A DNA stretch of 10,721 nt, taken from the NCBI GenBank assembly GCA_030670605.1, contig DAOVBK010000028.1, positions 1 to 10,721 on the forward strand. The letters run 5' to 3'. The notes under the pieces were generated by a model that saw nothing but the letters and a program-made list of their open reading frames with translations, did no database searches and was not told the origin of the DNA. This DNA comes from Candidatus Stahliibacteriota bacterium (GTDB lineage Bacteria; Hydrothermota; Tepidihabitantia; SM23-42). Both the position numbers and the translations under genes were made by a program. Positions 1 to 10,721 of the stretch are shown here, piece after piece (position 1 is the stretch's first letter; each line of letters begins with the position of its first letter).

Positions 1-2767
1 CATCCCAGAATGGTGCGATAAGGAGCGGCGGACCACCAGCAGCAGGAATGTGCAAGTTGTACATATCGGCGATCCACGTGGAATCCATTGCTGCATAACC
101 GTTTGACGAGATTGATATCCGGTCATACCAGTTACCATAGAACTTAAAGCTGAAGGGAAGGGGAACTGTTTTTGTCTCGTTGTCTGCGAGACTGAGTGAA
201 TCACCAGGGCCCCCAAATTCGGGATCAATCTCAATCCAACTGTAGGTCGGACACGATGAGTAGTCAGTATCAGTGTCATCATATGCGAAATAGCCATATC
301 CATCAGGTCCACACGGTTGCGTTTCGTCAACAACACCAATGTATATTTTGAAGGAGATGGTTTCCTGGAAGTTGGTATCGCCTGATAGTCTGAGCACGCA
401 GTTTATTGCATGTCCTGGAGCAACAGATGATGCTGCCTGTATGACAAAGTGATTACTGCTATTTGTGACAGAGTCACCAATTGGGATATCACCGAAAGAC
501 CCGAGCGAATCAGTGACCGTCACCGCGGGATTCATGGACCGCAGTATGCCGGTGATATTCGTACCCATGAGTGCACCGCAGTTTTCAACTGACACAATGA
601 GATCGCTCGTTTCACCCGGCTCTAATATGCCATTTCCACCGTCAAGAACCGTGTGCCATTGATATGCGAACTCAGGTGCTTTGACTGAAAAAGGCATAGA
701 TGAGTACCACGTGCCCTGATCAGTACTGATTTCCAGTGTGCATTGTGCGGTATGTCCGTTTTTCGCGCTTGTTGAAACATTGAATGTGTACTGTTGAGGA
801 CCACCAGTTACACCGGGAGAGATTGAACCATACGACTTGAGCGAATCCGTTATTGTGATGAACGGATCATGGGTCATGAGTTTTGCCGTGACATTAGTTG
901 CGGTAACTGACGTGCCGAAATTTTTCAAGGTAATATTCGTGTTAATAATCTCACCAGGATTGATCTCACCATTATTGTTGCCGCTTGCATCATCAATGGT
1001 ATGGTCATAATAGCCAACATAGACTGATGTGTTGCTTATGGTACAGAATCCACAGTATGGTTTGACATTAGGCTTGGTAACTGTGACAAATAGTGTGTCC
1101 TCAGTAGCAGTCATGAAGGTGAAATCAGCAGAGCCTGATGCGTCAGTAAAGGCAACCTCTTTCACTTCATTTTCTTTATAGAGACTGACCATTGCATCAG
1201 CAACTGGCTGTGAACTGCTGTTCTCTACCTGTACTGAGAGTGCATTGGTGCCGACCGGCAGTGTTGCAGTATGGCTTACGATAAAACTGTCTGGTGTGTC
1301 GGTCCAGACCGCAAGTGAGGGGTCACCCAAGAGGTTGTACGTGTGAAAATAGAATGAACTTCCTTGATTCCAGGTGGTATCGAGCGGGAAATTCATGAAC
1401 AGTTCCATCTTGCCGCGGTACAGTGCTGGTCCGAGTGCATTAATAGAATCCTTTAAGAATCCCCAATAAATTCCGTAATCAAGGCAGTTATTCCAACGGC
1501 TGCTGGTTTGCCACGTTGATGCGCCGAAAAAGGCGACAGCGCCGCGCGGCGTGGTTGGATTGCCTGCTCGTAGCCATGCTTCGCCAAAACATACGGGAGC
1601 GCCATAATTACCATTGTAACATGTAATGCTCGTCACGACAGGTAGTTTCCAGCCGTTGGTCAGAGCAAATACATCGTCATTTGTGAAATCTGGCCTGATC
1701 CATCCGTTGATATTTGCGTCTCCAACCCGGTAGTTAACAAAAATAGCACCTTGGTTAACAGAGTTTGATACTGGAGCACCACTTGTCGTTGGCGGAAAAT
1801 AGACAGTGTCCACAGTCGTGAAACCGTACTCGAGCATTTTCTCTCTTACCCATCGTTTGGTCAGAATGGGTGTGGTCATGAATGCTGGGAAGTCAGCACC
1901 TACTACCAGGGATCGCTTAAACCATGCTGTTTCGTTTGTGTAGGGTTCTCTTTCATAACCTACTATTTTCGCAACCATTGTATTCAGTTCAAGTTCACTG
2001 CTGGCAGGCAAGCGTCCGATCAATAACTCCGAAAAGAAATCATCTCCGTCAATCAATGAATAGGGATGGTCAGTGTGATTGACTGGTGGAAGAGCTGAAT
2101 AAGACGGAAGGAATTCAACATCACCGATGAGAAGGACGTATTCTGGTGGCGGATTCCACGTAAGATATGCATTAGCGATGTAGTCTTTTATTTCACTTGG
2201 TAATCCCCCAGTTTCGGATAGACGCTTGACCGACACATGCCACCCTTTTTTCTCTTTCCATTCGGCGAGTGGCAAAACTTCATCGTAAAAGGCATCAGGT
2301 GTAATAATCAGATACCCTTGCGGTACGTCGTTCGCTATGCTTTCGCTATTGAGAATCAGGTTATGGAACACTGCTTGCATAGATGGAGACATTCGCACGT
2401 CGCGTGTTGGCCCATCATAGTCTATGGTGATCCTCAGAGCACTCAGGAACGTGCTCGTGCTTCCATCTGTGTATGATGGGAAAACATTGATGGGGTAGAG
2501 GGTGCACTCATTAAGGGAGATTGGTTCACCGATCCGCACAGGGCTCGCTGTACTGATGCTATTGCGTGCTGCCACTGAATCGAGCGCCATGATTTTGTAG
2601 TGATACTGTGGAACATTCTCAGACATAATGAAGCGTGTCACCGGCACATTCTCCGTTCGATTGTGCTCTGAGAAATCGATACGGTATTCCAGCTGTGAGG
2701 GAGCGTGTGACAATGTCGTGACTTGACTATCGTAGAAACCGATGATGAAAGCGAGAAGGAAAATCAT
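1..2767 (-). CDS. Secreted C25-peptidase-like (gingipain-type) multidomain protein, 3' end outside window
   Basis: The frame is open from the ATG at 2767 to the window edge (922 codons), so the C-terminus is missing. A short hydrophobic N-terminus (MIFLLAFIIG) suggests secretion. Residues about 149-487 look like a C25 cysteine peptidase domain: it begins PQGYLIITPDAF, has a GDVEFLP segment, and contains VVTSITCYNGNYG with the presumed nucleophile Cys383, then GAVAFFGAS and a terminal LLGDPSLAVW. The catalytic His expected in a 'GHG' context is not seen; the equivalent segment (345-359) reads NYRVGDANINGWIRP. Residues about 580-785 hold two related beta domains, each containing an asparagine/glycine-rich 'NPGE' or 'LEPGE' loop (near 592 and 709). 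From about 814 a further beta domain has CGPDGYGYFAYDD and ends in SNGYAAM. The start is fixed by an in-frame TGA at 2777-2779 and an AGGAGG at 2772-2777. The ATG overlaps the upstream stop (ATGA). Family assignment is good; peptidase activity is doubtful. Confidence 0.85.
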   Translation of the reverse strand, partial: MIFLLAFIIGFYDSQVTTLSHAPSQLEYRIDFSEHNRTENVPVTRFIMSENVPQYHYKIMALDSVAARNSISTASPVRIGEPISLNECTLYPINVFPSYTDGSTSTFLSALRITIDYDGPTRDVRMSPSMQAVFHNLILNSESIANDVPQGYLIITPDAFYDEVLPLAEWKEKKGWHVSVKRLSETGGLPSEIKDYIANAYLTWNPPPEYVLLIGDVEFLPSYSALPPVNHTDHPYSLIDGDDFFSELLIGRLPASSELELNTMVAKIVGYEREPYTNETAWFKRSLVVGADFPAFMTTPILTKRWVREKMLEYGFTTVDTVYFPPTTSGAPVSNSVNQGAIFVNYRVGDANINGWIRPDFTNDDVFALTNGWKLPVVTSITCYNGNYGAPVCFGEAWLRAGNPTTPRGAVAFFGASTWQTSSRWNNCLDYGIYWGFLKDSINALGPALYRGKMELFMNFPLDTTWNQGSSFYFHTYNLLGDPSLAVWTDTPDSFIVSHTATLPVGTNALSVQVENSSSQPVADAMVSLYKENEVKEVAFTDASGSADFTFMTATEDTLFVTVTKPNVKPYCGFCTISNTSVYVGYYDHTIDDASGNNNGEINPGEIINTNITLKNFGTSVTATNVTAKLMTHDPFITITDSLKSYGSISPGVTGGPQQYTFNVSTSAKNGHTAQCTLEISTDQGTWYSSMPFSVKAPEFAYQWHTVLDGGNGILEPGETSDLIVSVENCGALMGTNITGILRSMNPAVTVTDSLGSFGDIPIGDSVTNSSNHFVIQAASSVAPGHAINCVLRLSGDTNFQETISFKIYIGVVDETQPCGPDGYGYFAYDDTDTDYSSCPTYSWIEIDPEFGGPGDSLSLADNETKTVPLPFSFKFYGNWYDRISISSNGYAAMDSTWIADMYNLHIPAAGGPPLLIAPFWD

Positions 2768-3732
2768 TCTTCCTCCTCAATAATCACCAGACCCATATCG
2801 CGGTCAGCAACATATACCAAGCCATCTTTGACATAGATTGCGTTTGCATATGATGTCTCGATGTATGAATACAACATGGGCTCTTCAGGGATACTGATGT
2901 CTATTATCTGGACGCCACCGTCGCCATCTGCAACATATGCGTAGTCTCCATCCACGAACACATCATTGGTATATTCAGGGGTGTCATACGAACCCATCGT
3001 ATGCAAGTTTCCAGGGTCTGTGATGTCGATGATAATGAGTCCGGCACGGCCATCGGCAACGTATGCAAAGTCACCGGCGACAAATATGTTCCTTGCATTT
3101 GAGGGTGTGTCGATCCAGCCAACGAGAGCTTCACTATCTGGTTTCTCCAGGTTAAAAACATAAATCCCCATTTGTTCACATGCTAGATAGGCCATTGAGT
3201 CAACCACTGACAGTCCCCTTATGTCTCCAGGCGTGGTGAATCTTCGAACATAGGAAGGATATTGGGGGTACGTATATACATCTTCGACATGGAACCAATA
3301 CCGTGCAGCAATATACACATACATTGTTTCAGCGACCGGCGCGACTACGTTATATGCATAGATGGATGGATCCTGGCCGACAAAACGTGGTTCCCGCGGA
3401 TTTGCTATATTCAAAACCATGAGACCACCGTTTGTCGATGACGTGAGTGCCAAGTATCCGAACGTATCCCTGACCGCAATACCGTTTGCATCCCGATTAG
3501 TTATGTACTCTCCTACAACGAATGTAGATTCAGGGTTAGTTGTATTCACGATTTGCAGGCCGGCTTGACCATTGGCTACGTATGCGAATCCGTTGCGCAC
3601 TTCGACATCTTCTGCATAGCCAGGAAGTTCACACGTGCCGATGATGGTGAATTGTCCTTGTTCAGAGACGTCAGGTCGTTTACATGTGACAACCAACAAA
3701 ATAATGAAAAGAAAGCAAGTTGCTTTCTGCAT
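2764..3732 (-). CDS. LVIVD-repeat beta-propeller lipoprotein
   Basis: This 322-residue protein has a lipoprotein signal peptide: hydrophobic residues 6-15, then a lipobox ending at Cys17 (LVVTC). It should be lipid-anchored outside the inner membrane, probably at the outer membrane. The rest is built of LVIVD-type repeats, with patterns such as 'vfVdGDYAYVADGdGGVQIIDIS.P..P'. I count seven: about 41-78, 83-119, 126-165 (degenerate), 172-207, 213-250, 256-291 and 297-319. The seventh stops after LVII, and the N-terminal stretch FTIIGTCELPGYAEDVEV supplies the missing last strand, so the ring probably closes as a seven-bladed propeller. Proteins of this repeat type are often cell-surface or binding proteins of unknown ligand; no enzymatic residues are apparent. 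It lies 8 bp after the barrel gene and its stop overlaps the start of the C25-like gene. The specific function is unknown. Confidence 0.9.
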   Translation of the reverse strand: MQKATCFLFIILLVVTCKRPDVSEQGQFTIIGTCELPGYAEDVEVRNGFAYVANGQAGLQIVNTTNPESTFVVGEYITNRDANGIAVRDTFGYLALTSSTNGGLMVLNIANPREPRFVGQDPSIYAYNVVAPVAETMYVYIAARYWFHVEDVYTYPQYPSYVRRFTTPGDIRGLSVVDSMAYLACEQMGIYVFNLEKPDSEALVGWIDTPSNARNIFVAGDFAYVADGRAGLIIIDITDPGNLHTMGSYDTPEYTNDVFVDGDYAYVADGDGGVQIIDISIPEEPMLYSYIETSYANAIYVKDGLVYVADRDMGLVIIEEEE

Positions 3733-3735
3733 TAT

Positions 3736-3742
3736 ACCTCCT
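3736..3742 (-). promoter_or_regulatory. Shine-Dalgarno AGGAGGT overlapping the upstream stop codon
   Basis: On the minus strand the sequence reads TAGGAGGTATAATG. The TAG is the stop codon of the beta-barrel gene (3743-3741) and forms part of a perfect AGGAGGT ribosome binding site, 3-4 bases before the lipoprotein ATG at 3732. It supports that start and shows that this organism uses canonical Shine-Dalgarno sites, which makes their absence at pgsB notable. Confidence 0.85.
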
Positions 3743-4736
3743 AATGATAAAATTGGAAACCTGCGCTGAGCACATACTTATCATAATCCTTTATGGCGCC
3801 GATTTCCGGATAGATCTCTGATGTTACCGTGCGCAACCGGCGTGCGTACGCAATTTTCAAATACATCCGTGTCAGGAGTTCCCATGCAATATCACCTACA
3901 ACAGAATGCATATGATCTTGACGGCCGTAGTGCAGCGTATCGTTTGAAAAATCAGTTGTGTAATGCCGGAACGTGTATCTATAGCCGATGCCCACGTCGG
4001 TCGGACAGAACGACTTGAACCGATAGGATAGTGATATGTATGGTGTATGTTGGTTATGGGAACCTTCAGGTGCATCTGCCTCGGGGGATGATGCAATTTC
4101 TGTCACTTCATTTGTGTTCGCTCTGTATGAATACCACACGGCAAGCTTGAGTCTGCGCTGTGGTTTTGTCTCGTATCCAATATCAATGATATGGTTACGT
4201 GCATCATACTGATCGAATTCTGAGATGTAGTCATCCCATCGATGACGGTACCGTACATGAACAGCCGTGGCTTTCTTCGGATAATATGATACTTTGCCGG
4301 TCACGGTACTGTACTTGACATGGCATCCTAAGTAATCAACGCTTTCTCCCTCAGGGTTTCGATAGTAACGTATGAGGTAGTCTGGGATGATTTCAAACGT
4401 TGCCTTGACCGCATATGTGCCGAGGCTCTGCCTGAGCCCCAGTTTGACCTGCTGAAAATCCTTTTGCTTGTTGTTCAGATAGTGGTTGATGCCACAATAC
4501 AGGTTCCATGTTGTGGTCTTGTCATCAAATATCTTGTTCCGCACGAACAACTCAAAGAGAGCACGGGAGCGTAGATCATCATACGTTTCAAAGGGGAACC
4601 GGTACGCTCGTATTCCGTTTTCGAAATCAGAGAGCTGTTCATCCGAATACGCGTATATGTTATTGTCATAGGCAGCATCAACGGTGAGGTCGAACGAATA
4701 ATCCCAGATAGTCAGGGCAAAGAACAGAAGTATCAT
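3741..4736 (-). CDS. Predicted outer-membrane beta-barrel protein
   Basis: I recognise no named family in this 331-residue protein. It is rich in Tyr, Phe and Arg, and alternating polar/non-polar stretches look like transmembrane beta-strands: TAVHVRYRHRW (157-167), LKLAVWYSY (196-204), TPYISLSYRF (231-240), VGIGYRYTFRHY (248-259), MYLKIAYARRL (291-301) and the terminal YVLSAGFQFYH (321-331). I count roughly 14 candidate strands. The aromatic C-terminal strand is typical of outer-membrane proteins inserted by the Bam machinery, although the last residue is His rather than Phe. The N-terminal hydrophobic stretch (MILLFFALTI) is short and uncharged. An in-frame TGA lies three codons before the ATG, so no upstream start is possible. 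The start overlaps the previous stop (TAATG), with GAGGAG encoded by that gene's last two Glu codons. A porin-like or export-channel role is an inference from shape and context. Confidence 0.72.
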   Translation of the reverse strand: MILLFFALTIWDYSFDLTVDAAYDNNIYAYSDEQLSDFENGIRAYRFPFETYDDLRSRALFELFVRNKIFDDKTTTWNLYCGINHYLNNKQKDFQQVKLGLRQSLGTYAVKATFEIIPDYLIRYYRNPEGESVDYLGCHVKYSTVTGKVSYYPKKATAVHVRYRHRWDDYISEFDQYDARNHIIDIGYETKPQRRLKLAVWYSYRANTNEVTEIASSPEADAPEGSHNQHTPYISLSYRFKSFCPTDVGIGYRYTFRHYTTDFSNDTLHYGRQDHMHSVVGDIAWELLTRMYLKIAYARRLRTVTSEIYPEIGAIKDYDKYVLSAGFQFYH

Positions 4737-5563
4737 TACTCCTCAACCTGAAAACGCACAGAAACACTCTGTGCGATGGTGCCGGACAACGTGAATTGTA
4801 TCGTGTGCCAACCATCACCGACATCAACATACGAGCGCTTAATATTTGACGGGACTATTTCTTGCCGATCCGTATAGGTAATGGTTTCAGATTTATGACA
4901 TTTCAGCGGAAATCTCTTGGCTGTTCCCCCATCCTCAGCAAGAAGTGTGTAACTCTGTTCACCGAGCATTGTTTCATCATGATTCAAACGTGAGATGACC
5001 ATCAGCTTTGTTGGTCCCTTTATTCGTAATGTTATCTTTCCATCGCGTTGGAGTTCATAGTACCGTATGATTTTTTCGTCTTCGGCTGCCTCAATCACTG
5101 TGTTGTATTCTGTTGCTGGTATGTCTCGCCATTTCTTGGGCGATTCATGGGCGAACTTGAGCAGGATGGTATCATTCGGTGACAACCAGTGGGTAATTTT
5201 ATAGGTGTTCGAACCCTGTGGAACTTCAATATAGAAGGAACGCCACTTGCTGACTGGTTTTCCTCGAAGGTTTTTTGATACGCTTGACATTTCTGATTCA
5301 AACGTGATGATTCGTTCATCGAGTTCATTTTCTTGAAGGATCACCTTATATAGTTCGCCTCGCTGGGCTCTCTCAGTCCACGGGATTCGTGAATAGACCC
5401 TGAGGTAGGTGGGTCCATCAACAGTTATGGTCACTGGTTGGTCTTTTGCCAGGACTGTGTATGTATCCATTTTTTTCGTGACAATCTCAATCTCATATGT
5501 CTGATTTGGAGTGATCCCCGTTATTTGTGAAAAAATCCCCAATAGTGTTAGCAGATAAATCAT
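4736..5563 (-). CDS. Secreted protein of two tandem homologous beta-rich domains, function unknown
   Basis: The protein has 275 residues from the chosen ATG at 5563. It begins with a hydrophobic signal-like segment (MIYLLTLLGIFSQITG) and is otherwise soluble. Two copies of the same unit are visible. Copy A (about 34-139) has PVTITVDGPTYLRVYSRIPW, later WRSFYIEVPQG and ITHWLSPNDTILLKFA. Copy B (about 168-274) has KITLRIKGPTKLMVISRL, later KRSYVDVGDGWHTIQFTL and SVSVRFQ. The shared core is 'hTh.hxGPT.L.V.SR', with a second 'RS(F/Y)..V' strand. I do not recognise the family; the pattern suggests beta-sandwich domains. A longer start at 5596 exists (11 more residues, overlapping the upstream gene), but the strong AGAGGAG at 5569-5575 fits 5563 and gives a clean signal peptide. 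Its place after the PGA genes suggests a periplasmic or surface role with the polymer; this is inference. Confidence 0.8.
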   Translation of the reverse strand: MIYLLTLLGIFSQITGITPNQTYEIEIVTKKMDTYTVLAKDQPVTITVDGPTYLRVYSRIPWTERAQRGELYKVILQENELDERIITFESEMSSVSKNLRGKPVSKWRSFYIEVPQGSNTYKITHWLSPNDTILLKFAHESPKKWRDIPATEYNTVIEAAEDEKIIRYYELQRDGKITLRIKGPTKLMVISRLNHDETMLGEQSYTLLAEDGGTAKRFPLKCHKSETITYTDRQEIVPSNIKRSYVDVGDGWHTIQFTLSGTIAQSVSVRFQVEE

Positions 5564-5564
5564 A

Positions 5565-6626
5565 TCATCTCCTCTTAAGATAATAATCAATGTCAAATCT
5601 CAAAAACACAAACAGCACAACACAGAGAATGACAAGATAGAGTATCGCCTGAACAACCGAATACCGGTACTCAAAATATAGGTTTCCTTTGCCTATTTGT
5701 GGCATCGGTATAGGTGCGATTGGCAGGTTGTGCTCCTGTGCAAGATTGTTGATGTCAGTAAGATTGACGACCGGAATACCTGCTTGTGAGAATTGTGCAA
5801 TGAGTCCTTTTCCGGCTTTTATCTGACGGGGTTTGATGAAACCAGAAGGAGCGTCGGCTCCAAGCAGTGCAGCAGCACCACCGCCGACATTGATGAACAG
5901 TTTGATTGTGCCAGCATACAGTGTCTTTCTCCTACTGATTGCTTCTTCAATACGTGTACCCTCCAGCATTTCAATGCCGTTCCGTTGAATGGCATTGATG
6001 ATCATTTCTCGTCCTTGCGGACTCAGGCCTCTTCCAATATCATCTTCACCACCGATCGATGCTGCCCGCGTTGCGAATGGTATGAGACTTTGTTCCTTAA
6101 GCGCATGCTCCATATCAAGATAGGTGAAAACAGGGCGGTTAGCACCCCACATTGATGAGCTGACACTCGTAATGATGACTGGCTCAAGTTCCAGGATTTT
6201 AAGAACACTCAACACGGCTATGTTGAGGGCTGGAAATGAACCAGTGAACGAAACAGCGACAGTATCACCCGGTCGCACGTGTGTTGTCCTGAGATAATCA
6301 ACAATGAGTGCAGCAAAGTTGGGATTTGCTGAGGTCAATTTAGCATTCAAATCTCCTCGTTCAGTCGTGATTGGTGAGTACTGTAATCCTATAAGACCGG
6401 TTTCATTTGGATCATTGATTCTATCAACAGGGATGTTGTAGTTGGTGGTCGCCAACCTGACTGTTTGAAAACAGCGAGCAGTAAGCTCTGCTGCAGCGAC
6501 TTTTTCATCATGGAATGGTGTCTTGACACGCGTCTTTGAGTTCAACTCGAGAATCATGAGAACTATCGTGAGAGCGGTCACAATGAGGAGTGAGAGTAGA
6601 GAAATCTTTCCCTGACGGAGTCTCAT
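5565..6626 (-). CDS. pgsW: Poly-gamma-glutamate system membrane protein (PgsW-like)
   Basis: This 353-residue protein has a basic N-terminus (MRLRQGK), a membrane helix at about 9-27, a large extracytoplasmic domain (about 30-322), a second helix at about 326-343 and a short basic tail (YYLKRR). The ectodomain has conserved-looking stretches: GDTVAVSFTGSFPALNIAVL (120-139), SVSSSMWGANRP (155-165), IGGEDDIGRGLSPQGR (191-206) and a glycine-rich INVGGGAAALLG (245-256). Its position directly after pgsB and pgsC, its size and these stretches match my memory of the 'poly-gamma-glutamate system protein' family (TIGR04332) found beside capB/capC in some bacteria. The biochemical role of that family is not known to me. 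The ATG overlaps the pgsC stop (ATGA), with a GGTGGTGAT sequence upstream as a moderate ribosome site. No PgsA/CapA-type gene is present, so this protein may fill an export or anchoring role; that is speculative. Confidence 0.75.
   Translation of the reverse strand: MRLRQGKISLLSLLIVTALTIVLMILELNSKTRVKTPFHDEKVAAAELTARCFQTVRLATTNYNIPVDRINDPNETGLIGLQYSPITTERGDLNAKLTSANPNFAALIVDYLRTTHVRPGDTVAVSFTGSFPALNIAVLSVLKILELEPVIITSVSSSMWGANRPVFTYLDMEHALKEQSLIPFATRAASIGGEDDIGRGLSPQGREMIINAIQRNGIEMLEGTRIEEAISRRKTLYAGTIKLFINVGGGAAALLGADAPSGFIKPRQIKAGKGLIAQFSQAGIPVVNLTDINNLAQEHNLPIAPIPMPQIGKGNLYFEYRYSVVQAILYLVILCVVLFVFLRFDIDYYLKRR
5569..5575 (-). promoter_or_regulatory. Shine-Dalgarno AGAGGAG that decides the start at 5563
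   Basis: The minus strand reads AGAGGAGATGATATG. The motif lies 5 bases before the ATG at 5563 and inside the last codons of the upstream pgsW-like gene, whose TGA (5567-5565) falls between the motif and the ATG. A start at 5596 would place this site within the coding sequence. Confidence 0.75.
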
Positions 6627-7072
6627 GGTATCACCACCCCATTGTGTAATATGATAATTATGAGCCTGACAAGGCTCGAAACAATGATCATCGCAGCGAG
6701 CGTTGGTATTATCCCCTGACGCGCAATCCAGTACGCGATCAAACCGGGAATCACGAATCCAACAGTTTCGATATTGATAGCGACCGTATCAATAGTAATC
6801 GGTGGCGAGATTCTTGTGAAATAGGCGATAAGATAGCCAACCAGGATTGATGCGATCAAAAGTCTTCGGCCGTAGATTATCATGTAAAACGATAGAAGTT
6901 TAACAACAAGGTACGTCACAACACCAACTCCTATTGTGCTCACCACTTGTGTTGGTTTGTGGAGCACGAGCGCGATGTAGCCTGGAACAACAATACCACC
7001 AGCAGCGAGTCCAATTGCTTCTGTGAGCACAAGACTCAAGAACATTCCTATTCCAACTGCTTCAATCAGCAT
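6623..7072 (-). CDS. pgsC: Poly-gamma-glutamate biosynthesis protein PgsC/CapC
   Basis: This is the integral membrane partner of the PGA ligase, needed for polymer synthesis at the membrane. At 149 residues it is the usual length for the family. It is almost entirely hydrophobic, with about five membrane segments (roughly 5-22, 26-38, 42-60, 72-88 and 102-145, the last containing two). Recognisable motifs are GGIVVPGYIALV (25-36), MIIYGRR (64-70) and GFVIPGLIAYWIARQG (105-120). These match the PgsC pattern of 'AGLVVPGY', 'YGRR' and 'IVPGLIAN..QKQG' in Bacillus. The VVPGY and VIPGL segments look like an internal duplication. The ATG at 7072 shares a base with the pgsB stop (TAATG), with AGGAAGGA upstream. 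It acts with PgsB as the catalytic pair. Confidence 0.95.
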   Translation of the reverse strand: MLIEAVGIGMFLSLVLTEAIGLAAGGIVVPGYIALVLHKPTQVVSTIGVGVVTYLVVKLLSFYMIIYGRRLLIASILVGYLIAYFTRISPPITIDTVAINIETVGFVIPGLIAYWIARQGIIPTLAAMIIVSSLVRLIIIILHNGVVIP

Positions 7073-8238
7073 TATTCCTTCCTGTGTTTGTCCAATTCCT
7101 CAGCCAGTTTCATGCCATAGCCGACAGTGTTGCCGATCGCAAAGATGAGGCTTTTGTCAGCAACGAGCTGTGTGATATGATCAACAACATGGCTGGGTTC
7201 ACGATTGCCATGCTCGTGTATTTTTTCCGGATTAACGATGTGCTTCAATCTACGTAGGAGCACTTTCGTACCTGCTCCGGTTAGTATGTAATTATCTGCA
7301 CAGATTTTATTCTTGAAAAGTTCTGCAAGCCGAAATGTACGTTCAAGGCGGTCTTCTCGACAGTTCACAAGAACACTGATCTGTGAAAAATCCTTGTCTA
7401 TTGACTCCCAGATGTGGAAGGTTGATTCCGGATCATTCGCTGCCATTGCATTGACGAGCGTGACTGTTTTGTCATCAAGTTTGAGAATATTTTTTTTGAG
7501 GACGCCAGGATCTGGCTGCATCGCACACATGCCGTGGAGCGCTTTTTTTCGGTCTGCACTCAAGTGAGTGCAGACATCGAGTGCAATCGCAACGTTTTCT
7601 CTGTGTTCCTCGTAGCGAAATTGTTTCAGTTCACGAGGTGTAACAGTACCCATGTCGGAAAAGACAACAGTGATATTTCTTTTCTGTAGTTGGGGAATAA
7701 AATCCTGCATCAGTTCAGACTTCGTACAGAAGAGGTGACAGCCCGACGGAATTGCATTGACAAATGCTTGAGCAACGTCTTGTACCGATGGTCCCATGAC
7801 ATCGAGATGGTCTGGTCTCACATTCGTGATGACGGCAATGGTGGGTTGTGTTATCCGCGTAGATTCAGTTTTCTGAAGGTCTGGTCGTAGTGCCATACAT
7901 TCGAAAACTACGGCATCGGGTTTTCGAACGGCCATTCTCTTGGTTATCCTCATCTGTTCTCGGATGTTTGCCATACCAAGCCGGACAATAGCGTTTTCAG
8001 AACCATCATCCATGATAATGCGGGCACTGGTTCCTGTTGTCTTAGCAATGACTTTTGTACCATCGGCACGAAGACCTGCAGCAATGAGCCGCGTCACCGA
8101 TGATTTGCCGCGCGTGCCATTGACCCATATGCGCACGGGTATAGATTGCACCCGCTTCTCATGCTGCACTTTCTCAACTCTATAAATAACAATAAAGAGA
8201 AGGAGGAGCACGACCACTGCTAAGATACTGTACGGCAT
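7072..8238 (-). CDS. pgsB: Poly-gamma-glutamate synthase PgsB/CapB (Mur-ligase family amide ligase)
   Basis: PgsB activates the gamma-carboxylate of the growing poly-glutamate chain with ATP and adds glutamate through an amide bond, on the cytoplasmic face of the membrane together with PgsC. The 388 residues fit the family (about 390). The order is: an N-terminal membrane helix (about 4-18), a charged linker (VEKVQHEKRVQSIPVRIWVN), the ATP-binding loop NGTRGKSS (39-46) followed by TRLIAAGL and KTTGTSAR (65-72), the family signature ECMALRPDLQ (112-121), and TNVRPDHLDVMGPS (137-150), which corresponds to the Mur-ligase-type metal/ATP region. The C-terminus has FAIGNTVGYG. The start is firm: an in-frame TAA lies just upstream (8247-8245) and the N-terminal layout matches Bacillus PgsB. 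No Shine-Dalgarno is present, and the -10 box lies 5 bp before the ATG, so translation is probably leaderless. It is the first gene of the operon. Confidence 0.96.
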   Translation of the reverse strand: MPYSILAVVVLLLLFIVIYRVEKVQHEKRVQSIPVRIWVNGTRGKSSVTRLIAAGLRADGTKVIAKTTGTSARIIMDDGSENAIVRLGMANIREQMRITKRMAVRKPDAVVFECMALRPDLQKTESTRITQPTIAVITNVRPDHLDVMGPSVQDVAQAFVNAIPSGCHLFCTKSELMQDFIPQLQKRNITVVFSDMGTVTPRELKQFRYEEHRENVAIALDVCTHLSADRKKALHGMCAMQPDPGVLKKNILKLDDKTVTLVNAMAANDPESTFHIWESIDKDFSQISVLVNCREDRLERTFRLAELFKNKICADNYILTGAGTKVLLRRLKHIVNPEKIHEHGNREPSHVVDHITQLVADKSLIFAIGNTVGYGMKLAEELDKHRKE

Positions 8239-8243
8239 ACTAA

Positions 8244-8271
8244 ATTATAAACAATTCGTTAGATTTGTCAA
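8244..8271 (-). promoter_or_regulatory. Consensus housekeeping (sigma-70-type) promoter of the pgsB operon
   Basis: On the minus strand TTGACA (8271-8266) is followed by a 16-bp spacer and TATAAT (8249-8244), a perfect match in both hexamers. Only 5 bases (TTAGT) separate the -10 box from the pgsB ATG at 8238. Transcription normally begins about 7 bases after the -10 box, at or within a base or two of this ATG. The first message should therefore have essentially no 5' leader. Confidence 0.85.
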
Positions 8272-8277: not shown

Positions 8278-8339
8278 GATATTACTGGTTTTTCTCGAGT
8301 AAGCCTAAACCAATTTGTAAGACGTGTGTCTAAAATGTG

Positions 8340-10721
8340 ATGAGATACGATAAATTTACACAAAAGGCGCAGGATGCACTCGCCGGAGCGCAAGAAATCC
8401 TTGATGAGTACAATCATCAGGAACTTGATACTGAGCATATTTTTCTAGCACTGCTCAGACAGGAAGATGGACTCGTCGTTAAGATCCTGCAGCGTATCGA
8501 TATTGTCCCGGACGTTGTTCAGCGCAGGATTGAATCAACACTTAAGATGAGGCCAAAGGTGCATGGTGGCACTACTGCTCAAATGTACATCACGCCGCGG
8601 ACCAAGAAACTGCTGTCGCTCGCGCGCGCTGAGGCTGAACGCATGAAAGACGAATACGTCGGCTGCGAGCACATTTTTCTGGCGATAACTGAGGAACGGG
8701 AAGGTGCAACTGCTCAGATTGTGCGGGAGTTCGGTATTACCAAAGAGAAGGTGTATCAGGCGTTGCAGATGATACGTGGGTCGCAGCGGGTGACTGACCA
8801 GGATGCAGAGAATAAGTACATGGCGCTTGAGCGGTACGCACGTGATATTACGGCGCTCGCAAAACAAGGTAAACTTGATCCAGTCATTGGCAGGGATAAT
8901 GAGATACGGCGTGTGATCCAGGTTCTGTCACGTCGGACAAAGAATAATCCAGTTCTCATTGGCGATGCCGGCGTGGGTAAGACCGCAGTTGCTGAAGGCC
9001 TCGCCCAGAAAATCGTCGAAAAAAATGTCCCCGAGATACTCAAGGACAAACGCATACTCGCCCTTGATATGGGCGCGCTTGTTGCTGGCTCCAAATACCG
9101 CGGTGAGTTTGAGGAACGTCTGAAAGCGGTCATGGATGAGATACGCAAGGGTAGGGGGGAGATCATTCTTTTTATTGATGAGATGCATACGATTGTTGGT
9201 GCAGGTGCCGCAGAAGGTGCGATCGATGCTTCGAATATGCTCAAGCCGGCACTTGCACGTGGTGAACTTCAGTGCATTGGTGCCACAACCCTCAATGAAT
9301 ACAGAAAATCCATTGAAAAAGACGCCGCGCTCGAACGCAGATTTGCACAGGTCTTTGTTGGTGAGCCGTCAATCGAAGACACGATTGAGATCCTCAAAGG
9401 GTTAAAGAATCGCTACGAGTCCCATCATGGTGTGACGATCGATGATGGTGCACTCGAGGCAGCAGCAAAATTGTCAGACCGTTACATTACGGAGCGATAC
9501 TTACCTGACAAGGCAATCGATTTAATCGACGAGGCATGTGCCCGGGCACGTATCGAGATCTATTCCATGCCTGATGAGTTGAAAGAGATGGAAAAGAAAC
9601 TTGAACAATTGAATAAAGAAGGCAGGGAAGCCGTTGACATGAGGAACTACGAGAAGGCAGCGCAACTGCGTGATGAGACTGAAATACTACAAAATGAGTA
9701 CAAGAAAAAAAGAGCACAGTGGATGAAACAGCGCGGTATTGACGATCGCGTACGTGCTGATGATATTGCGCACATCGTGTCGACGTGGACAGGCATTCCT
9801 GTTTCCCGTATGCTTGAGTTAGAAAGGGACAAATTGCTCAGAATGGAGGAACGTATTCATCAACGTTTGGTTGACCAGAACGATGCCGTTGTTGCGGTCA
9901 GCGATGCTATTCGACGTTCACGTGCAGGTCTTAAGGATCCAAGCCGTCCAATCGGTTCGTTTATATTCTTGGGCCCGACTGGCGTTGGTAAGACCGAGCT
10001 TGCGAAATCACTTGCACAATTCCTATTTGATACCGAAGAAGCCATCGTACGAATTGACATGAGTGAGTATCAAGAAAAACATACGGTGTCACGTCTCATT
10101 GGCGCACCACCCGGGTACGTGGGGTATGAAGAAGGGGGCCAGCTGACTGAGGCAGTCCGGCGCAGACCGTACCGTGTTATTCTCTTTGACGAATTCGAAA
10201 AAGCACATCCTGAAGTCTTTAATGTACTCTTGCAGCTTCTCGACGATGGACGGCTCACTGATGGTCAGGGGAGAACCGTTGATTTTAAGAACACGATTGT
10301 CATCATGACATCAAATGTTGGCAGTGAAATTATCACCGATGCTCTCAAGAACGGTGACTACAACCACGACAAGATAAAAGATGAGGTATACCAAATACTA
10401 CAACGGAGTGTACGACCTGAATTCTTGAATCGCGTTGATGAAGTTATCGTTTTCAAACCGCTCGGATTTGATGAAATCAAGGGCATCGTTGAGAGGGAAT
10501 TGAAAAAAGTAGAGAAAAATGTTAAAGAGTTTGGCTACACAATCACTGTTTCAGAGACGGTCAGGGATTTCCTCGCACACGAAGGATTTGATCCCGTGTA
10601 TGGAGCGCGTCTTTTGCGCAGAGCGATACAACGGCTGATAGAAAATCCTCTTTCCAAACATCTCATTGCCGGCAAATTCAAAAAAGGTAGTACCGTCACC
10701 ATTGATATGGAGAAGGGAAAG
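8340..10721 (+). CDS. clpC: Hsp100/Clp AAA+ unfoldase with UVR middle domain (ClpC/ClpB type), 3' end outside window
   Basis: The frame runs 794 codons to the window edge and is nearly full length. It is an ATP-driven hexameric ring that unfolds or disaggregates proteins in the cytoplasm. Order: Clp N domain with two repeats (about 4-55 and 82-137; [11 protein letters not shown] and [10 protein letters not shown]); first ATPase with Walker A GDAGVGKT (208-215), pore loop KYRG (Tyr253), Walker B IDEMH (Asp280, Glu281) and Arg333/Arg334; a short middle region with a UVR motif [11 protein letters not shown] (436-446); second ATPase with Walker A GPTGVGKT (545-552), pore loop GYVG (Tyr593), Walker B FDEFEKAH (Asp617, Glu618) and RPEFLNR (692-698). 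The small UVR-bearing middle domain is typical of ClpC, not of ClpB with its long coiled coil. The 662-691 loop lacks the VGF/IGL-like ClpP-docking tripeptide, and the C-terminus ([20 protein letters not shown]) is ClpB-like. ATG 8340 is chosen; GTG 8337 is possible. No Shine-Dalgarno is seen. Confidence 0.93.

Follow-up and report, generated by a model that had tools for sequence, protein, structure and literature searches.

The closest described relatives of the locus considered here are the poly-γ-glutamate (PGA) loci of Bacillus, PgsBCA(E)/CapBCA(DE), and the pgsB-pgsC-pgsW loci (TIGR04332) of Clostridia, which have one membrane. A PGA operon has also been proposed in an uncultured phylum, the Cloacimonadota (PMC13082233); there it consists of capB, capC and capA, section 20 of the paper mentions no outer-membrane part, and a legend refers to PGA clumps seen by staining. 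Across open-access titles and the opening lines of abstracts, we found no outer-membrane PGA exporter described, most subscription papers lying outside this search. Here we analyze a contig of 10,721 nt (DAOVBK010000028.1; "the window" denotes this whole stretch) on which genes for PGA synthesis are followed by genes for a tandem β-sandwich protein and an outer-membrane β-barrel. Its sequence and that of its relatives indicate that the cluster probably specifies a dedicated trans-envelope pathway for PGA in a two-membrane bacterium, with the sandwich and barrel proteins as portal. The locus is a candidate for the missing part, namely PGA passage across the outer membrane.

The window is one entire contig (C7) of a 1.75 Mb genome that is 79% complete and in 294 contigs. 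The nearest named relatives of this genome belong to candidate division WOR-3/Stahlbacteria, a little-known phylum. WOR-3 cells do possess an outer membrane: microscopy of the isolate sy37 reveals both an inner and an outer one (PMC12285271). A term search of the main text of a WOR-3 survey (PMC12542636) returned no instance of "glutam", "capsule" or "pgs". The cluster joins predicted PGA synthesis enzymes to two unnamed envelope proteins. Its core genes are as follows.

7072..8238, minus strand: pgsB, poly-γ-glutamate ligase (TIGR04012, 401.5 bits against a cut-off of 222.7)
6623..7072, minus strand: pgsC, membrane partner (TIGR04011, 120 bits against a cut-off of 96.45; PF14102)
5565..6626, minus strand: pgsW, poly-γ-glutamate system protein (TIGR04332, gamma_Glu_sys, 301.5 bits against a cut-off of 100)
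4736..5563, minus strand: tandem β-sandwich protein, proposed periplasmic guide (from its duplication, model, jelly-roll matches and co-occurrence)
3741..4736, minus strand: 14-stranded outer-membrane barrel, proposed channel (AlphaFold2 model, predicted local distance difference test (pLDDT) 93.2)

PgsB and PgsC are encoded side by side and both exceed curated equivalog cut-offs, as in the Bacillus systems; PgsW also exceeds its curated cut-off. PgsB is a member of the Mur-ligase superfamily, and a search of PDB sequences (E up to 1) returned Mur ligases only for PgsB and nothing for PgsC or PgsW. Unlike the Bacillus loci, the WOR-3 locus has no adjacent CapA/PgsA and adds two proteins of a putative outer-membrane pathway. 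In the four Clostridia loci the three genes are likewise arranged as pgsB-pgsC-pgsW, with no match to the sandwich or barrel. In the window, seven minus-strand genes occupy the stretch between 8238 and the start of the contig: pgsB, pgsC, pgsW, the duplicated-domain (sandwich) gene, the barrel gene, and two that encode an LVIVD lipoprotein and, last, a C25-like protein. Junctions are overlaps of 1–4 nt (1 nt between pgsB and pgsC) or gaps of 1–8 nt. A preliminary description of the window had claimed such an unbroken run, ending in a propeller lipoprotein and a C25-like protein, and the head-to-tail arrangement, family matches and barrel model confirm it.

We surveyed 147 WOR-3 genomes by profile, counting as a pgs genome any in which pgsB or pgsW was found (n = 70) and leaving out weaker pgsB-family matches to other Mur ligases. 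The pgsW profile matched in 70 genomes (66 over the cut-off), and pgsB exceeded its cut-off in 69; for the portal parts, the sandwich profile matched in 65 genomes and that of the barrel in 69. Pgs genes together with a sandwich or barrel match occurred in 66 genomes, pgs genes only in 4, a sandwich or barrel match only in 6, and neither in 71. Hence a match to either part is present in 66/70 pgs genomes versus 6/77 others (Fisher P = 2e-29, uncorrected for relatedness). Both parts were detected by profile alone in 59/70 pgs genomes and, after the loci were read, in 65/70, the six additions being fused genes in G034, G035, G037, G045, G055 and G056 (loci L058, L074, L070, L077, L060 and L059, respectively). 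The contigs of G070, G041 and G091 stop too early for a call, within the sandwich gene or shortly behind pgsW. As judged by profile, then, the sandwich and barrel are almost never without pgs genes in WOR-3. Among the six genomes with portal matches only, four (G038, G039, G082, G112) have the match where a contig ends, G020 is a member of family f17, in which the genes are dispersed, and G010 has an isolated weak barrel match and no sandwich protein.

The association extends across families (labels are available for genomes printed in tables). In each of the 20 pgs families, both parts occur in one member or more. Within f2, f10, f16, f21, f22, f26, f32 and f37, members that lack pgs genes also lack both parts. 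In three f17 genomes (G017, G018, G019), pgsB, pgsW and the sandwich–barrel pair are each on a contig of their own; all are present, although unlinked. Gene order is loosened in L055: pgsB sits on a different contig, and two open reading frames (ORFs) separate pgsW from the sandwich gene. A separate scan of genome contigs with PgsW, which used one query protein and covered close relatives only, yielded 12 WOR-3 and four Clostridia loci. All nine WOR-3 loci of sufficient length (L005–L009, L011–L013, L019) contain the seven genes, arranged identically; L004 and L010 stop short, and L014 is interrupted within pgsW. In the Clostridia loci (L015–L018), pgsB, pgsC and pgsW were matched, and the sandwich and barrel were not. 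The preliminary description had allowed that homologs of the two proteins might prove rare beside pgsBC in relatives; within WOR-3 they are not rare there. Phylum-wide co-occurrence and the reading of loci also lead us to reject chance co-location of the cluster genes.

Searches for homologs returned 143 sandwich and 166 barrel proteins, most without a name. Among the 120 homologs listed for each, source names are WOR-3, Stahlbacteria, TA06, "bacterium" and subsurface metagenome; among those listed, one barrel is named "Porin" by one source and two carry a precomputed PF11854 match.

One locus, L050 (G052:C16), holds the cluster plus accessories, whereas the printed members of its family (G050, G051, G053, G054) have neither pgs genes nor portal. 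Its PgsW and barrel are closest in sequence to family f1 and its PgsB to f37. Block transfer is a possible origin of this cluster, judging from these affinities.

In 12 genomes, from families f20, f22, f23, f24 and f27, sandwich and barrel are encoded by one ORF of 509–664 residues, with the sandwich N-terminal and the barrel C-terminal. In L059, the fused ORF gives a very weak sandwich match; in L077, it gives none and was assigned from its barrel match, a fusion profile and its position, and this ORF also takes in letters upstream of its probable start. In all 10 loci that retain pgsW, or the end of it, the fused gene adjoins pgsW; in the other two (L075, L076), the contig starts inside the fused gene. 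In both f27 genomes, the fused gene lies between pgsW and pgsB. The smallest loci (e.g. L058, L070) consist of pgsB, pgsC, pgsW and the fused gene only, and this small natural form makes the candidate portal directly testable. All 12 fused proteins are strongly basic, with net charges of +37 to +92. For comparison, 52 other ORFs of at least 300 residues in the same loci have a mean net charge of 1.5 (standard deviation 15), although one reached 56. A database search with the fused proteins, in which only the 7999 candidates sharing most words were scored, returned 2 proteins and so is little informative about spread outside the phylum. In L057, a K/R-rich linker of ~20 residues separates the sandwich and barrel parts; this linker is possibly a polyanion-binding tether.

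The sandwich protein has no Pfam or NCBIfam match of note, and its profile has no match among PDB sequences (E up to 1). Profile comparison of one half with the other gives an hhalign probability of 98.7% (E = 2.7e-16), versus 0.08% for a control stretch of the barrel. The predicted structure (pLDDT 89.4, predicted template modelling score 0.61) consists of β-sandwiches rather than helices, and the second domain matches jelly-roll folds. For the barrel, Pfam gives a weak sub-threshold DUF2490 match alone (E = 0.0012), and its profile hits PDB sequences once, at chance level (E = 0.84), the protein being unrelated.

Synthase-dependent polysaccharide secretion (BcsB/BcsC, PgaA, PelB/PelC) resembles the WOR-3 portal in having an outer-membrane β-barrel. 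The periplasmic part of PgaA and BcsC is a TPR superhelix. In WOR-3, by contrast, the periplasmic part is a tandem β-sandwich and the polymer a predicted polyamide, and the PDB search shows no sequence relation of sandwich or barrel to known portals. Because of this other periplasmic fold, the other polymer and the lack of sequence relation, we do not file the portal as a synthase-dependent member. By analogy, the best reading is that it would be a functional analogue of BcsB/BcsC or PgaA.

Several observations weigh against a portal role. The folds closest to the barrel are those of ordinary diffusion channels such as CymA and OmpG; the WOR-3 barrel differs from these in gene context and proposed direction of transport. 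In favor of a portal, among inward-facing residues lysine plus arginine exceed aspartate plus glutamate in 97% of 72 barrels, but the inward face was assigned from hydrophobicity, without control barrels and with one strand ambiguous. The barrel encoded in the window, with a net charge of –3, is not basic overall. In Escherichia coli, capABC alone gave PGA (PMC5542703), and production there therefore needed no dedicated portal. Three genomes also depart from the pattern. In G108 (97% complete), the barrel gene is right behind pgsW, and a sensitive six-frame search of the locus found no sandwich protein; hence the sandwich is not always needed, or is unrecognizable there. G072 (99% complete) keeps pgsB, pgsC and pgsW, has no barrel and has lost both parts, a 45-residue sandwich remnant with a stop being the reason it is counted among the 66. 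In G029 (L067), the barrel part is in a different frame from the sandwich part; this copy may be broken or mis-assembled.

With these points taken into account, we still consider a dedicated pathway the probable explanation. The preliminary description had proposed the barrel and duplicated-domain protein as the polymer's route, and co-occurrence, the unlinked f17 genes, the fusions beside pgsW and the confident barrel model lend support to that proposal. PgsB and PgsC, with PgsW, would synthesize the polymer and move it through the inner membrane. In the periplasm, the polyanion would be caught and guided by the sandwich protein, and the barrel, with a net basic inner wall, would let it out. 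Surface functions could then be added in some families by the LVIVD lipoprotein and by C25-like and YCF48-like proteins exported by type IX secretion. We infer that γ-PGA is the product, that it passes through the barrel and that PgsW stands in for CapA. On balance, we also favor the broader view that this is a new secretion machine: an exporter of a non-ribosomal polyamide, comprising PgsB-PgsC-PgsW in the inner membrane, a tandem jelly-roll guide and a basic 14-stranded outer-membrane channel, present in 20 WOR-3 families, with guide and channel in a single polypeptide in five, and yielding a polyglutamate coat with type IX surface proteins in some.

Alternatively, the sandwich and barrel might retain the polymer at the outer membrane, anchor it there or import its fragments, with export taking a different route. 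Jelly-roll domains do resemble binding modules, the barrel resembles uptake channels, and G108 has no recognizable sandwich protein. Yet even the smallest loci (e.g. L058, L070) retain the pair, and there the PGA locus offers no other outer-membrane candidate; no fragment transporter was seen beside the cluster in the loci read. We regard anchoring or uptake as unlikely.

The product could also be another polyamide, or a short oligomer, made by a PgsB-like ligase, which might leave the rest of the export scheme intact. In favor of this alternative, no product has been described for WOR-3 cells, and substrates vary within the Mur-ligase superfamily. On the other hand, PgsB and PgsC pass equivalog cut-offs, and the strong basicity of the fused portals is as expected for a polyanion, so a different product seems improbable. 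Least credible is that the downstream genes are unrelated envelope genes sharing an operon by descent: gene order can persist in this way, relatedness is uncorrected in the co-occurrence test, and descent alone would also give the correlated pairwise distances between the barrel-bearing protein and PgsW (r = 0.873) or PgsB (r = 0.865) in 27 genomes, and the idea does apply to part of the cluster, since several families have pgs genes without LVIVD and C25 next to them, but the sandwich and barrel are co-present in f17 though unlinked, are absent together within eight families, are fused in five, and in f27 stay inside the cluster as a fusion although the order has changed.

The preliminary description had noted that PgsA/CapA, PgsE, CapD and PgdS were not visible. 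This stands in part. There is no pgsA/capA gene in the window. One CapA-family (PF09587) protein is encoded elsewhere in the genome, on contig C29, not beside pgs genes and flanked by genes that by eye resemble asd and an M23 peptidase. The GGT/CapD family has no member in the window genome (79% complete); it was found in 1 of 21 WOR-3 genomes, leaving 20 without the CapD-family gene of the Bacillus CapBCA(DE) system. PgsE and PgdS were not searched for. Absences in the window genome are weak evidence alone, as it is incomplete and fragmented, and the argument is carried by the relatives. CapA-family proteins occur in 93/147 genomes, with similar frequency in those with (48/70) and without (45/77) pgs genes (P = 0.23). 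The family is missing from 22/70 pgs genomes, and five genomes that are 92–97% complete (G074, G093, G096, G097, G099) have the portal and no CapA family. In the eight genomes where a CapA-family gene and pgsB share a contig, the closest copy lies 200 kb away from pgsB. Being unlinked and unassociated in the case of CapA, and rare in that of CapD, neither is a regular partner of pgs genes. A classical PGA locus elsewhere in the window genome was considered and rejected: the genome contains one pgsB match and one pgsC match, and its CapA-family gene is unlinked.

Expression of the cluster likely depends on a single promoter, for which the window offers one candidate.

8244..8271, minus strand: promoter-like TTGACA-16-TATAAT (12/12 consensus matches), directly before pgsB

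The pgsB start codon begins 5 nt after the end of this element. In relatives' loci, the same element lies just before pgsB in 12/12 cases, with 10–12 of 12 matches, seven being perfect. For a control, shuffles of one such region scored 11 in 2/300 and at least 10 in 36/300. Given the 5-nt spacing, a leaderless mRNA is expected. This conserved consensus suggests a strong, leaderless transcript, as far as can be judged from sequence. We rejected a riboswitch or structured leader, as Rfam gives no match in the window at gathering scores.

Two further genes complete the cluster in the window.

2764..3732, minus strand: LVIVD-repeat lipoprotein, accessory (PF08309, E = 2e-35; lipobox LVVTC read by eye)
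2..2767, minus strand: C25-like surface protein, accessory, probably an inactive peptidase (PF01364, E = 7.4e-60; cut by the contig start)

The C25-like protein aligns with gingipain R over ~360 residues. It keeps the cysteine and has the histidine of the gingipain GHG motif replaced; we take histidine and cysteine to be the catalytic pair of C25 (gingipain) peptidases. GHG is found in 0 of 33 related C25-like rows with letters at that place (35 rows in total). A full-length relative, in L006, has a C-terminal type IX sorting domain (PF18962, 34.5 bits); in the window copy, which is cut before its C-terminus, this domain is not readable. SprA, of the type IX translocon, is present in 21/21 genomes, including that of the window (18 over the cut-off). 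Given the missing GHG, the type IX tail in the relative and SprA, the C25-like protein is most likely a secreted, non-catalytic surface protein. A role as an active processing peptidase is disfavored, the GHG histidine being missing.

The preliminary description had placed the lipoprotein and C25-like protein on the surface as parts of the pathway. A surface location for the C25-like protein is probable, but the two are not core, occurring in some families only. Both follow the barrel in f1, f6, f9, f10, f26, f32 and f37; LVIVD alone does so in f7, and in f18 LVIVD is seen up to the contig end. Neither was seen beside the barrel in f16, f17 or one f10 genome (L066). The 12 fused loci, whose flanks vary, have no LVIVD or C25 match, and hence these proteins look like accessories. 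In L056, a YCF48-like match lies further off from the fused gene. LVIVD, C25 and YCF48-like proteins are accessories in some families.

Downstream protein families were tested for L006, L007, L008 and L013. In the named relatives' loci, the C25 gene is followed on its 3' side by a gene for a YCF48-like repeat protein with a type IX tail and then, usually, by a second C25-like gene, or in L007 by one for an M14 peptidase. The C25-like proteins of relatives' loci appear to form a group of type IX-exported proteins that are probably pseudo-peptidases. In L056 and L067, a similar secreted protein of ~496 residues is encoded directly upstream of pgsB and by eye resembles the L007 M14 peptidase.

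On the far side of pgsB, and divergent from it, the window carries a clpC-like gene (8337–10721, plus strand), named by eye from its sequence. Apart from L014 and L005, where the flank is short, tblastn places a clpC-like gene at this position in the WOR-3 loci (10/12).

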